This document shows, in pieces, positions 11,387-56,005 of a stretch of DNA of 64,000 bases; positions within the stretch are counted from its first letter, which is position 1; every line of letters starts with the position of its first letter. Where the stretch lies: positions 27,898,461-27,962,460 of the forward strand of contig OY365816.1 of assembly GCA_959347315.1 (NCBI GenBank), read 5' to 3'. The DNA is from Bimastos eiseni (taxonomy: Eukaryota > Annelida > Clitellata > Crassiclitellata > Lumbricidae). The position numbers and the translations under genes were made by a program. The notes beneath the pieces were generated by a model, which was not told the origin of the DNA, ran no database searches, and saw only the letters and a list, made by a program, of their open reading frames with translations.

Positions 11387-14300
11387 ATGGCGAAAGCAAC
11401 GGAGCTCCTGAAATCACTGTCTCTCATCCGCTTCATCTTCATTTTACTACTACTCAGAACGACATATTCAGGTTTACGTTTTTTAATTAATTAAGTTTCT
11501 TTAATATTCGTTTTCGTTTGTAATTAATTCATATGGGCCTAGGCTAACGGCCTAGTCCCTATAATTTGTAAAACTATATTGTATTAAGATATTGATTAAG
11601 CTCCTCTATACACAGTTGAACCTGACACTGATACAAATGAGATATGAAGTCGACGATAACTAGGTCATTGAGCTAGATTATCTGAAGAATACATCTGGGA
11701 CTTTTCAGCATAAATCGGCGGTCGCGTTTGTTTTTGCTAAGGAACTAAAACTTAATATATAGAGCCTGCAATATAAATAAAATGTGTTCAAAAGTAGATT
11801 GTTGGCGTGGAGCAGCATAAATTTTGTTCAAACTTTCGGCGATTGTACGTTCAAAGTTATCCTACCGATTACCCGGATGTCACTTTGTCACGGCCATCGC
11901 CCGCAATGTTTCAGAAAAGACAATCACTGATTCGCTTTCACAGTGCGGCGTCATATCCCTTCCATTTTAGTCCAAGTGAGAACCGTTCAAAGGCGGCGAT
12001 CCCAGTGCGCAAGGTTACGAGGAAAGAAATAAGCAAGGTGGCTAGAGTTATTCTGAAATTTGATATCGCCCTTCTTCCAAAATATTTTGCTCAGAAGTGC
12101 ATACATACGCCTCGACGGCGCAACTGCAGTTGTACTGCAGAGTAATTGTGCGCGATGGACTTGCTCAGTAACTCCCCGGACGTGAGTCGAACCCACTCAC
12201 TCAGCGCACACTGAACGTTACAGGCCGACCGCTCTAACCAATCGCCACTGATGGATAGAGCACATTCCTATAACTTATCTGCTATTTAGTTACAACCACA
12301 GGAACGACGCAGTCAACTACATCGGCAACTACGCAGTCAACAACTACTGGAACGACGCGGTCAACAACATTGGCAACGACACAGTCAACAACTACTGGAA
12401 CGACGAAACAAATCACCGGAACGACGAAACAAAATACTGGAACGACGAAACAAAATACTGGAACGACCAAACAAAATACTGGAACGACCAAACAAAATAC
12501 TGGAACGACCAAACAAAATACTGGAACGACCAAACAGATAACTGGAACGACAAAGCAAATTACCACTGCATCGAATAGAACAACGTACAGTGAGTAATAA
12601 TTTTTTTATATCTAAGATAACTTGACAGTACACATCAGAATAAGTAGACCAAGGCCTAGTTAAAATTGAATTCGATCCATTACCATCTGATCGGTTCCAG
12701 TATATGCTCTAAGCTAAGCTATTGTATTCAAATAAAGATACATGTATCTCTTCTAGACTTTTATTTTACTATATGTTTAGGCGGATAATTATATTCCGAG
12801 GACATGTCCAATCTGCGAAATTCAATTCTGGCATATTCCGCTCTTCTGTTCTAATTTCTATATACTGCTTCATTCCGCTTGTTCTATTATATTTATTCCG
12901 TTCTGTTATGTTCTCATGTATTCTGCTCTCTGTTGTTCTCTTATATTCTGTTCTACTCTGCTTTTATTCTGCTCTGTATTCTGTGACATTCTATTCTATT
13001 CTGTTCTATTCTTTTTCAGCGTTGTATTGTTAGATTCTATTCCACTTTTGACGCTGCATGCTGGATAGGTCGCTAGGGTTGCTAATAAAATAAAATAAGT
13101 AACTGTTAGATTTTAGTTCAATTCTGTCCCATGGTGTTCTAAATAATTCTGTTAAAATTCATTCTATCACATGATTCTATCCAGGGCCGTACCGAGCTAT
13201 AATTGCGCCCTGTGCCTAGTTAATTGCGCCCTGTGCGTAGCATCAATTTGGCGCCCCCACATTTTGAAAGTGCATTTTATGGAATAATAAGTAATTCCAT
13301 CCTGAAATTTGCGCCCTTTCCACATTTGCGCCTGGGGCTAGGCCCCTCTGGCCCCTCCATCGGTACGGCCCTGATTCTATCATATTCAATAATATCATGT
13401 CCTATTCCATTCTGTTTAATTCGATTCTGTTTAAATCCATTATGTTCTATTCTGTTTCATTTAATTCTATTGCCATTCCGTTTTATTGTTCAATTCTTAA
13501 ATAAATTCTATCCAGCGTCTATAGATTTCTATTTCTTTCATTCAGCCGTTCCAGGTATCGATCGATTTCTGGCTGCTCCAGTACAGCTGACAAGGTGAGC
13601 AAAAATGACTCACAGTTGAGCTTTGCAGATGAATATCCACTTCATTTCGATTTTTACTTATTCATTAGTGAGCCTATTTTAATGTCGTCGAGGTTTTAAC
13701 TTATGATCGGTTCGTTTAAACTGTGGCGTCATTTCTAGTTTGCTGACCATAATTAGACTCAGGCCAAAGACTCCCACAGACTTCTTTTCTGATAATCTGA
13801 TAATAGATAGACTGCGGGGAACAAGCTCTCTTTCTGTAGCAAATCGGTTCTTGAGTGACGGTGAAAACGTTCAGATAATGGCCAAACTTATTCGTTTCTC
13901 GGGTACTTGCAGCAATAGATCCTACTCGATAGAACATATATACTAGAGTAACTATACATGCAAAAGCGAAGGTCAAGAGAATGGTTTATTTTGTTGATCT
14001 TTTTAATTGAATTATTTTATTAAAGACCTGAAGGGACGATACACTTGACAGTTCGCCGGGACCCTGAACCAACTTTTGGACGGTGACCCATAGTTTTGGA
14101 AACACTGGATTAAATCATAATTATTATATTTAGATTAGATTTGAGTATTAATTTCTACTTATAAATGTTCGGTGTTTTTTTATTGCTTCCACTTAGTAAC
14201 TGTCGATATTGCTTTTCTCTTATTCAGCGGAGGAAGTCTTCTGACTGTCATTGGTTCTTCGTTTGATTCGGTTGTCAATCCTCAGGTCAACGTCACTGTT

Positions 14301-55500: not shown

Positions 55501-56005
55501 CAATCCTGACAATATCGATGAAGATCGGATCTACGATAGTCGTATATCGTATTTTGCGGATGAACCTGGTTCGTCTGGTGGTAATCGGCCAATGACCATA
55601 TACCCACCATGGCCCGAGGATTTAGGAGTGCCGCTGCAGGAGGGGCTACGACCTGGATCAAGTCGAAGCTCAGGGCTAAGGAACATCGCAGTCTCGAGAA
55701 AATCATCTCAGGGCACGGGTAGTCGAAACTTGAAGAGCATATTGGAGGTGAAAGTACCTGCCAGTACGGAAGCAGATAACGTAAATGAGGGCTACCTTAT
55801 TAATTTCACGCAGAATATCAACAACAGAGATAGCTACGACAGACACGTTCCACAGCTAGCCGACTTGGACACGACCAGAAATCGCCAGTCGCTCTTCCCA
55901 CCCTTGCCAGACCCTGACGTGGCTGATAACTCTCCCATAGCCCTCAGGGTGGATTCCAACAGGTGGTCCATGTTTCCTCCCCAAATAAGTCCTGGCGAAG
56001 AGTGA
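43530..56005 (+). CDS. Gene D: giant mucin-stalk three-IPT receptor, two lesions
   Basis: Exons 43530-43584, 43893-50161, 50770-50914, 51393-51560, 51918-52038, 52515-52859, 54253-54435, 55013-56005. Ignoring the two lesions this is about 2,759 aa. The signal peptide spans the first junction (SSICLLLIPALCC). Start is the first in-frame ATG; 43545 is an alternative. Exon 2 is a Thr/Pro/Ser stalk of about 2,090 residues. The IPT exons follow the A-C plan: first IPT (VVSSWFPQFGPLCGSTKIVV), second (GGSILTVIGESLDSVATPQ; no CNRC), LTCLLPGLQLSNDFTKKL, third with paired cysteines, YYYKCLE before the transmembrane helix, then CRRRKRRQ and a 280-residue tail with DYDNTIQHVGY and three motifs like NRPMTIYPP. 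As given, a missing base at 46511/46512 and TAA at 49264-49266 break the stalk; both phases at the exon ends fit only if one base is restored. Sequencing error or pseudogene cannot be separated here. The domain exons 3-8 look intact. Confidence 0.8.
43893..50161 (+). repeat. Coding 42-bp repeat array (gene D stalk exon)
   Basis: Roughly 140 units of 42 bases encode ITTTTDPTTTSTPQ and variants (AP, AQ, DL, DS in place of DP; SPL in place of TPQ). It runs from about 43930 to 49980 before fading into irregular Thr-rich sequence. Higher-order structure is present: a 714-bp period (17 units) at 47213-48640, and about 1.1 kb near 45780-46860 recurring at about 48467-49548, offset 2,687 bases (64 units less one base). 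The overlapping Val-rich frames on the minus strand are by-products. Confidence 0.93.
50395..50600. repeat. (GAT)n/(TTA)n microsatellite in gene D intron
   Basis: GATGATGAC-type repeats at 50392-50430, then an interrupted (TTA)n run to 50595. Confidence 0.9.
51230..51350. repeat. GCGCCTC-family fragment in gene D intron
   Basis: GCGCTCTATAGCAGCC and GAAGGGCGCTATGTAAATCG resemble the ends of the dispersed family. It ends about 40 bases before the exon acceptor at 51392. Confidence 0.4.
53590..54220. repeat. R2 repeat copies in inverted arrangement, gene D intron
   Basis: CCACTTGAAAGCCAAGCCGCAGGG at about 53797 and the reverse form GTGAATAAGCTGGTGCCCTGCG at about 54147 belong to the family seen at 1.9, 18.3 and 57.3 kb. 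They face each other within a 1.4 kb intron. Confidence 0.5.
54485..54565. repeat. TAATTGCTTAATAAC repeat
   Basis: Four to five imperfect units of about 18 bases at the start of the last intron of gene D. Confidence 0.65.

Follow-up and report, generated by a model that had tools for sequence, protein, structure and literature searches.

Sema-less relatives of Met and the plexins have probably escaped notice, since the survey of the plexin/Met superfamily used the keywords plexin, semaphorin and Sema together with Sema-domain queries (Alves et al. 2019, PMC6374515). In the accessible part of that paper, the Met-LP RTKs are described as receptors in which lophotrochozoans and echinoderms combine Met and plexin parts, and four of the six plexins of the sponge A. 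queenslandica as having a truncated intracellular domain. Outside the animals, the available text on the Dictyostelium tgr (tiger) genes describes transmembrane proteins, encoded by a multi-gene family, whose IPT/TIG ectodomains act in cell-cell recognition (PMC12324515).

The window analysed here, a stretch of 64,000 nucleotides of Bimastos eiseni DNA, contains a cluster of four genes (A to D) that belong to a larger family. The predicted proteins resemble Met RTKs and plexins in their single transmembrane (TM) helix and in their IPT domains, of which the third aligns weakly, but differ from them in that no Sema, PSI, kinase or RasGAP part was found, and by variable mucin, Ig or EGF heads and by short tails with tyrosine motifs. 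The Met-LP RTKs are likewise mosaics of Met and plexin, but as far as described there they have a complete plexin ectodomain and a kinase. The truncated sponge plexins share the lack of a full intracellular part, but were found by a Sema-based survey, and variable heads are not mentioned for them in the accessible part of PMC6374515. The likeness to the tgr genes is one of architecture, a multi-gene family with an IPT/TIG ectodomain on a transmembrane protein, whereas Ig, EGF or mucin heads are not mentioned for tgr in the available part of PMC12324515. A long Thr/Ser/Pro-rich stalk, as in transmembrane mucins, is found in A, B and D and in an open frame on contig C8, but not in C. Finally, the Ig-like heads of relatives outside the window and the tyrosine motifs of the tails recall Ig receptors of the CEACAM/LILR type. 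The tails of the latter carry ITIM/ITAM-like motifs, whereas the present family combines an IPT stem with YxN and YxxP motifs.

Exon plan of the four-gene cluster

The earlier note on this DNA described a common exon and phase plan for four neighbouring genes on the plus strand, and the splice models, which were derived from the DNA sequence, agree with it: the order of the GT-AG exons and their phases are identical. The plan, with phases in brackets, reads SP-(1)-stalk-(1)-IPT1a-(2)-IPT1b-(2)-IPT2a-(0)-IPT2b-3a-(0)-IPT3b-(0)-TM+tail, where SP is the signal peptide (Table 1). The proposed YYYKC motif precedes the single TM helix in all four genes, and a stop closes each last exon. A signal peptide, a Thr-rich stalk and IPT domains had also been ascribed to all members, and here the genes differ. 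Three IPT domains are present in B, C and D; in A, IPT1 is missing and the stalk joins, in phase 1, a 49-nt exon that holds just the IPT1/IPT2 boundary. Signal-peptide exons were found for A, B and C, and no firm one for D. The Thr-rich stalk stands for A, B and D, but that of C measures about 35 residues (20% Thr). As a whole, the original observation on the cluster is partly confirmed. Open frames run through the exons of all four genes except for the 6.3-kb stalk exon of D, which changes frame near 46490-46538 and has an in-frame TAA at 49264. The ectodomain pieces counted contain 8-11 N-glycosylation sequons each, and an Rfam search gave no match.

Table 1. Genes and other features, in positions of the window
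Feature	Position	Strand	Exons	Remarks
Gene A	11387..17661	+	11387-11471 SP; 12290-12589 Thr stalk; 13546-13594 IPT1/2 boundary only; 14228-14384 IPT2a; 15165-15506 IPT2b-3a; 16141-16326 IPT3b; 16927-17661 TM+tail	7 exons, 617 aa, without IPT1; splice model, open frame to stop
Orphan part-copy of B tail exon	19886..20111	+		226 bp, 98.7% identical to 27759-27984
Gene B	21644..28006	+	21644-21725 SP; 22486-22977 stalk; 23724-23856 IPT1a; 24390-24554 IPT1b; 25124-25280 IPT2a; 25964-26305 IPT2b-3a; 26690-26875 IPT3b; 27353-28006 TM+tail	8 exons, 736 aa
B/C stretch over exon IPT2b-3a	25944..26320	+		95-98% identity
Gene C	32649..40531	+	32649-32730 SP; 34791-34889 short stalk; 35504-35636 IPT1a; 36389-36553 IPT1b; 37222-37378 IPT2a; 38236-38577 IPT2b-3a; 39200-39385 IPT3b; 39836-40531 TM+tail	8 exons, 619 aa
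Candidate SP exon of D	43530..43584	+		sole candidate, uncertain; 18 residues, phase 1, GTAAGT donor
Gene D	43893..56005	+	43893-50161 giant Thr stalk; 50770-50914 IPT1a; 51393-51560 IPT1b; 51918-52038 IPT2a; 52515-52859 IPT2b-3a; 54253-54435 IPT3b; 55013-56005 TM+tail	5' end open (no firm SP exon)
Tandem repeat in D stalk	43939..49951	+		42-bp unit x 143; 14-residue mucin-like unit

IPT ectodomain and missing Sema and enzyme parts

The Met/plexin-type IPT ectodomain claimed before was recovered both with Pfam, where TIG is listed for all four members (best E 7.4e-13, gene C 1.9e-11, at a lax threshold of E <= 10), and among solved structures, where the significant relatives are only plexins and Met. 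More specifically, IPT1 exceeds the Pfam cut-off in C (8e-8) and D (1e-6), and IPT3 does so in D only, being weaker in A to C (E 0.006 for that of A by itself). IPT2 alone, tried for C and D, gave no Pfam match; its first half was placed by alignment to plexin/Met. The significant alignment to plexin-A and Met covers IPT1 and the first half of IPT2, and is followed in the same order by the third IPT in non-significant segments; by itself, this third domain had no significant match among solved structures. From these comparisons, tandem IPT domains of the plexin/Met type are predicted to adjoin the membrane, the third on weaker evidence. A genome-wide TIG search listed 25 matches, none of them at the family loci; the window exons were presumably missed because introns split the domains.

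The absence of kinase and RasGAP parts holds in that neither the cluster nor its surroundings gave such an exon. The plexin RasGAP domain (PF08337) has 41 matches at eight other places of the genome and none on C11, the contig of the window, or in the family clusters. Among the kinase matches listed (120 of 1522 candidates scored), none lies in the window or the family clusters, and the nearest one on C11 lies on the opposite strand, some 167 kb away from the window start. The kinase motifs HRD..N and DFG occur in none of the six frames of the window. A kinase or GAP exon downstream of the cluster was considered and rejected, as none was found. Elsewhere, kinase and TIG exons lie 11-12 kb apart on one strand at C1:50.45 Mb and C16:12.18 Mb. 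Sema and PSI are missing, as the earlier note had it, from the gene models and from the open reading frames scanned (15 of the 35 listed and five downstream); in A, B and C, the introns that separate the signal peptide from IPT1 leave no room for a Sema domain. A PSI-like pattern occurs only twice in the window, both times in minus-strand sequence of the D stalk.

The stem exon across the genome

Taking the family as a window cluster with mucin stalks proved incomplete. The stem exon recurs at no fewer than 24 loci, spread over six contigs of the genome, and elsewhere it stands under Ig-like or EGF heads; 14 loci were fetched and read, and 18 of the 24 were read in all. The stem exons keep the same order in the 14 loci read, with some exons unmatched in individual loci. 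A TM exon was found in 13 of these (not at L035), all 13 tails read end in a stop without an enzyme, and an aromatic motif of the Y-x-Y-x-C type precedes the membrane in most copies.

The heads of the 14 loci, assigned to their stems by order and phase only, comprise eight Ig-like, one EGF and one mucin-like frame. They follow the subfamilies: mucin-like in the window and in the C8 gene (where an S/T/P-rich open frame of 544 residues precedes the stem), one Ig-like domain in the C5 clusters and the C13 gene, and EGF in one C6 gene. Phase 1 is seen at either end of the six Ig-like exons shown and at 8 of 8 IPT1a acceptors shown (by visual reading). A profile of three Ig-like heads matches CEA (E 4.5e-6), CEACAM6/1 and FcRL5, and LILR weakly, with Ig matches under the Pfam cut-offs in all five exons scanned (best 22.1 vs 27); a second Ig type had no significant match among solved structures. 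The two EGF exons of the C6 gene (phase 1-1) reached best E-values of 1.5e-5 and 5e-6. Ig or EGF heads within the window were rejected, the matches being at chance level. Some copies look damaged: the head of L034 has an in-frame stop and L035 a frame change. In the family tree, row c5a_35 is partly out of frame.

Searches against 5.8 billion proteins gave no relative, either with C (E <= 0.001) or with an alignment of D, B and C (E <= 1), so that the family has no second-species support. A control search with the flanking p66 exon gave 2544 relatives, thus animals are represented in the database; the sensitivity is limited, p66 being a slowly evolving protein and full plexins being excluded by the length limit. 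Literature searches yielded no described family with a Met/plexin IPT stem, variable heads and no enzyme. The family is large and apparently undescribed, and it is probably lineage-restricted.

Tails, selection and possible function

The tails are enriched in two tyrosine motifs. In 16 tails YxN occurs 19 times vs 8.0 in shuffles (1/5000) and YxxP 20 times vs 6.7 (0/5000); with one tail per subfamily (8 tails) the figures are 173/5000 and 30/5000. ITIM-like motifs (1 vs 3.6) and Yxx[LIV] (6 vs 14.2) are under-represented, and the ITIM/ITAM pattern of Ig-type immunoreceptors is not found. When phosphorylated, YxN and YxxP have Grb2- and Crk-type adaptors as SH2 partners. The tails of the window subfamily also carry a repeated (R)..[ST][VILM][FY]PP motif. 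All these motifs had been spotted before the tests were made, and the P[PF] form was picked so as to include gene C.

The ectodomain is under purifying selection, with pairwise dN/dS of 0.13-0.21 for A, B and C vs D at near-saturated dS (2.1-3.2). Diversifying selection was not seen in the window genes, where 30 of 31 pairwise values are below 1 (8 further pairs with saturated dS gave no value; highest B-C signal peptide 1.1 and B-C IPT2a 0.96), nor in the Ig heads (five pairs, about 0.2-0.8), by a pairwise test that is weak in both cases. In the IPT2b-3a exon the dS between B and C is 0.05, vs 0.67 in the next exon, and this near-identity points to probable gene conversion. The family thus shows exon-wise exchange besides recent duplications.

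We consider it fairly probable that these genes encode modular, single-pass, enzyme-less receptors for recognition or adhesion, which signal through phosphotyrosine adaptors. The domains, the exon plan, the lack of enzyme exons in the scans, the motif enrichment, the purifying selection and the exon-wise exchange are read from the DNA; ligand binding, phosphorylation, adaptors and the recognition or adhesion role we infer. The stem would consist of three IPT domains derived from Met/plexin, behind a front exon that differs by subfamily. Head and stem may engage a partner in the matrix or on a second cell, with the stalk determining how far they reach. Clustering would then give cytoplasmic kinases access to the tyrosines in the short tail, and phosphorylated YxN and YxxP could recruit the Grb2- and Crk-type SH2 adaptors; the window subfamily adds its repeated motif. 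The step to immune-type receptors taken in the earlier note we likewise infer: exchange and recent duplications were seen, diversifying selection was not. Its interpretation is, overall, partly supported. Possible, if rather doubtful, is that a spiralian animal evolved its own system for immune or self/non-self recognition, with a constant Met/plexin stem, phase 1-1 heads that can be exchanged (mucin, Ig-like or EGF), exon-by-exon conversion and adaptor-docking tails, as an independent counterpart of the vertebrate Ig receptors and the Dictyostelium tiger genes.

The closeness of the ectodomain to the IPT domains of plexin and Met would also suit decoys or co-receptors, enzyme-less stems that tune true plexins and Mets by pairing with them or by binding their ligands. 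Partners may exist, given the plexin-GAP exons at eight places and the two pairs of kinase and TIG exons. However, a pure decoy has no need of the tyrosine motifs enriched in the tails, the subfamilies differ in their heads and the Sema domain is gone, and we regard this reading as unlikely. If instead the stalk were the functional part and the stem a mere spacer, the proteins would form a mucin-like coat or anchor the matrix. The giant stalk exon of D, the S/T/P-rich frame before the C8 stem and the 8-11 sequons per ectodomain piece fit this, but C is almost without a stalk, nine relatives read bear Ig-like or EGF heads, and what the members have in common is stem and tail; a coat is quite improbable. 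Decay into Met/plexin gene fragments of little function seems more improbable still: the disrupted D stalk, the loss of IPT1 from A, the defects of L034 and L035 and the orphan tail copy are set against the low ectodomain dN/dS vs D (pairwise, at near-saturated dS), the open frames in the other exons of the four genes and the conserved phases and splice sites. For the receptor reading, the 24 or more stem-only loci would show a Met/plexin ectodomain re-used without Sema head and without enzyme, and would offer spiralian biology a candidate family of recognition receptors that can be put to the test.

With respect to the setting of the window, the best 120 relatives of the p66 exon include 23 named sequences, of which 22 belong to lophotrochozoan phyla; a lophotrochozoan animal is thus probable, and an echinoderm or hemichordate setting is unsupported by them. 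In the p66 tree, which took in no echinoderm or hemichordate row and has weak basal support, the window only groups with transcripts on a long branch that stands next to annelid and brachiopod rows.

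Architecture of the window genes

Genes A to D were modelled by hand from the DNA, by six-frame reading and ORF comparison. The splice models bear out the proposal of the earlier note that these are four plus-strand neighbours with one exon and phase plan, namely signal peptide (1) stalk (1) IPT1a (2) IPT1b (2) IPT2a (0) IPT2b-3a (0) IPT3b (0) and a final exon with transmembrane helix, tail and stop (phases in brackets). A signal peptide, a Thr-rich stalk and IPT domains had been ascribed to each gene, and this stands for the shared plan but not for every member. More specifically, the gene A stalk is spliced in phase 1 onto a 49-nt remnant of the IPT1/IPT2 boundary, and the gene therefore has two IPT domains only; the gene C stalk has about 35 residues; and no firm signal-peptide exon was found for gene D. 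As assembled, the gene D stalk exon (6.3 kb, 143 copies of a 42-bp repeat) shifts frame near 46490-46538 and is interrupted by an in-frame TAA at 49264.

Features of the window, and genomic loci of the stem exon (IPT2b-3a)
Feature	Position	Strand	Remark
p66/GATAD2, single large exon	5089-6756		P66_CC above Pfam cut-off, GATA finger just below
Gene A	11387-17661	+	hand splice model
Gene B	21644-28006	+	hand splice model
Gene C	32649-40531	+	hand splice model
Gene D	43893-56005	+	hand splice model
VNTR, 42 bp x 143	43939-49951		14-residue Thr-rich unit, gene D stalk
Stem exon	C5:35.49-35.59 Mb		7 loci
Stem exon	C5:44.35-44.42 Mb		4 loci
Stem exon	C6:17.03-17.18 Mb		5 loci
Stem exon	C11 (window)		4 loci
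Stem exon	C8:33.93-33.95 Mb		2 loci
Stem exon	C13:24.43 Mb		1 locus
Stem exon	C14:8.11 Mb		1 locus

The predicted ectodomains are of Met/plexin type, as had been claimed. Pfam TIG was matched in all four (scan at E <= 10; best E 7.4e-13), in gene C over three stretches (E 1.9e-11). Among solved structures, a four-gene profile was significant only for plexin-A4, A2, A1 and Met (E 1e-10 to 7e-8, with other Met chains matched at up to E 0.009); the part aligned with significance comprises IPT1 plus the first half of IPT2. Taken singly, IPT1 exceeded the Pfam cut-off in C (8e-8) and D (1e-6), and IPT2 of C and of D had no Pfam match. The proposed last IPT near the membrane was sustained in part: IPT3 on its own passes the cut-off of 20.9 bits in D (21.2) but stays below it in B (18.8), A (17.0) and C (12.2), and the third module alone had no significant match among solved structures. 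Against plexin and Met, short segments of this module fall in order, non-significantly, on the last IPT. A genome-wide TIG search that ignored introns gave 25 matches, none at loci of the family. Under the conventional numbering of Met, these pieces would be its IPT2-4.

Catalytic parts and cytoplasmic tails

The terminal exons of A to D all close with a stop, and HRD..N and DFG motifs are lacking in the six frames of the window. Plexin-GAP exons gave 41 genome matches at eight places (three on C1, two on C2, and C5:30.56, C6:14.29 and C14:20.84 Mb), none of them on C11, the contig of the window. No kinase lies in the window or the family clusters among the matches listed (120 of 1522 candidates scored); the nearest on C11 in that same list is on the minus strand and stops some 167 kb ahead of the window. 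Models of Sema, PSI and kinase had no match in the 15 of 35 further ORFs scanned in the head and upstream intervals or in five downstream ORFs, and a PSI-like pattern occurs twice in the window, both times on the minus strand of the D stalk. The claims that kinase, RasGAP, Sema and PSI parts are absent agree with these searches. The plexin-type GAP exons sit apart from the stem-exon family. Elsewhere, kinase and TIG exons lie 11-12 kb apart on one strand at C1:50.445-50.457 and C16:12.177-12.189 Mb, possibly representing Met-type RTKs.

Outside the window, all 13 tails read close with a stop, with no enzyme domain in sight. YxN is bound by Grb2-type and YxxP by Crk-type SH2 domains. In 15 tails (L036, nearly a duplicate of L033, was left out) YxN had 19 copies in 13 tails versus 7.9 in shuffles (reached in 1 of 5000), and [LVIT]YxN 14 copies in 9 tails versus 1.5 (0 of 5000); in the set of 16 that also includes L044, YxxP had 20 copies in total versus 6.7 (0 of 5000). 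When each subfamily was represented by a single tail (8 tails), the counts were 8 versus 3.9 for YxN (173 of 5000 shuffles), 5 versus 0.8 for [LVIT]YxN (8 of 5000) and 8 versus 3.0 for YxxP (30 of 5000). ITIM-like and Yxx[LIV] motifs fell below shuffle expectation. All tails of the window contain [ST][VILM][FY]P[PF], the last letter broadened to take in C: D has four copies (0 of 20000 shuffles), whereas A, B and C have a single one (98, 78 and 61 of 20000). All of these motifs were spotted before they were tested, and the tails, being related, are not independent samples. The repeated motif of the D tail exon (55013-56005) and the A, B and C tails can also be written (R)..[ST][VILM][FY]PP, with four copies in D.

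Relatives, heads and exon exchange

Two pooled searches of the genome (660 Mb, 118 contigs; window at C11:27898461-27962460) placed the stem exon at 24 loci, which group into seven places spread over six contigs; the two weakest matches (E 0.001-0.002) are one on C6 and that on C14. The stem exon order is repeated in the 14 loci read of the 20 outside the window, though not each exon was matched in each locus, and the transmembrane exon is present in 13 (exception L035). In an exon tree of 18 rows, one partly out of frame, the window genes form one clade (100/97). L033 is duplicated in L036, with 94-98% identity across the parts that align.

The relatives carry various heads before the stem. 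One Ig-like exon lies upstream of IPT1a in eight C5/C13 genes (L031, L032, L033, L034, L037, L038, L039, L041; the heads of L031, L037 and L041 were found in the pieces L048, L045 and L047, respectively). By eye, acceptor and donor are phase 1 in all six Ig-like exons shown, as are the IPT1a acceptors in 8/8. All five exons scanned score under the Pfam Ig cut-off (best E 2e-4), and a three-head profile matched, among solved structures, CEA (4.5e-6), CEACAM6 and CEACAM1 (0.001-0.002), FcRL5 (0.005) and LILR (0.02-0.05). The best matches of a second Ig-like head type are mostly Ig chains, all non-significant. Two EGF exons of phase 1-1 occur in one C6 gene (L043 with L046), which also has a Thr-rich frame farther upstream, and a C8 gene has a candidate head in a 544-residue open frame (T+S+P 52%) upstream of its stem. 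For L040, the 5.4 kb + 3 kb searched yielded no head, and no Ig or EGF head turned up within the window.

The ectodomains of A to D are old and under purifying selection, with dN/dS versus D, rough at such distances, of 0.13 (A), 0.21 (B) and 0.17 (C), and dS of 3.2, 2.1 and 2.7. Between B and C, dS is 0.05 in IPT2b-3a versus 0.67 in IPT3b (p 3e-7 by a Fisher test of rounded counts, the pair chosen after the table was seen), and the 200 bases flanking IPT2b-3a are 74% and 64% identical; between A and B it is 0.09 in IPT2a versus 0.56 in IPT2b-3a (p 0.001). Such jumps between exons suggest exon-wise gene conversion. The head can also diverge independently of the stem, as in the pair L032-L034 (dS 0.16 in the head versus 0.69 in the stem exon).

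A frame change lies in the stem exon of the C5 relative L035 (5094-5463), and an in-frame stop in the Ig-like head of L034 (803-1114); both are possibly pseudogenes. Between family genes on C5, long frames on the minus strand (L045 4222-4707 and 5769-6260) resemble, by eye, mobile-element proteins.

Possible function and neighbouring sequences

We regard the family as receptors for recognition or adhesion that lack an enzyme part; everything beyond domain anatomy we infer. The head would do the binding, and the tail would signal via adaptors. The IPT stem would keep the head off the membrane and may bind too; TIG domains make cell-cell contact in Dictyostelium (PMC12324515), and PSI plus the first IPT domains form the leg beneath the Sema head of Met (PMC8249616). 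An immune role, also raised earlier, is counted against because no diversifying selection was found in the pairs tested (window exons and Ig-head pairs). In keeping with the view that no such family has been described, no paper on one was found in searches of an open-access collection. Alves et al. 2019 (PMC6374515) surveyed the superfamily with keywords plus a Sema query and described sponge plexins whose intracellular part is truncated.

The p66/GATAD2 exon is the left neighbour of the cluster. It has 2544 relatives among 7991 candidates; 22 of the 23 sequences with an organism name among the best 120 come from lophotrochozoans (Ridgeia, Lineus, Tubulanus, Lingula, molluscs and others) and one from a mammal. 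In a tree of 21 rows, with no echinoderm or hemichordate rows, the window exon groups with transcripts on a long stem, close to rows from annelids and brachiopods, with weak basal support. The source animal is accordingly a probable lophotrochozoan. An open frame of 200 codons, mainly short repeat, lies at 9570-10172, and an orphan 226-bp copy of part of the gene B tail (98.7% identical) is found upstream of B at 19886-20111.
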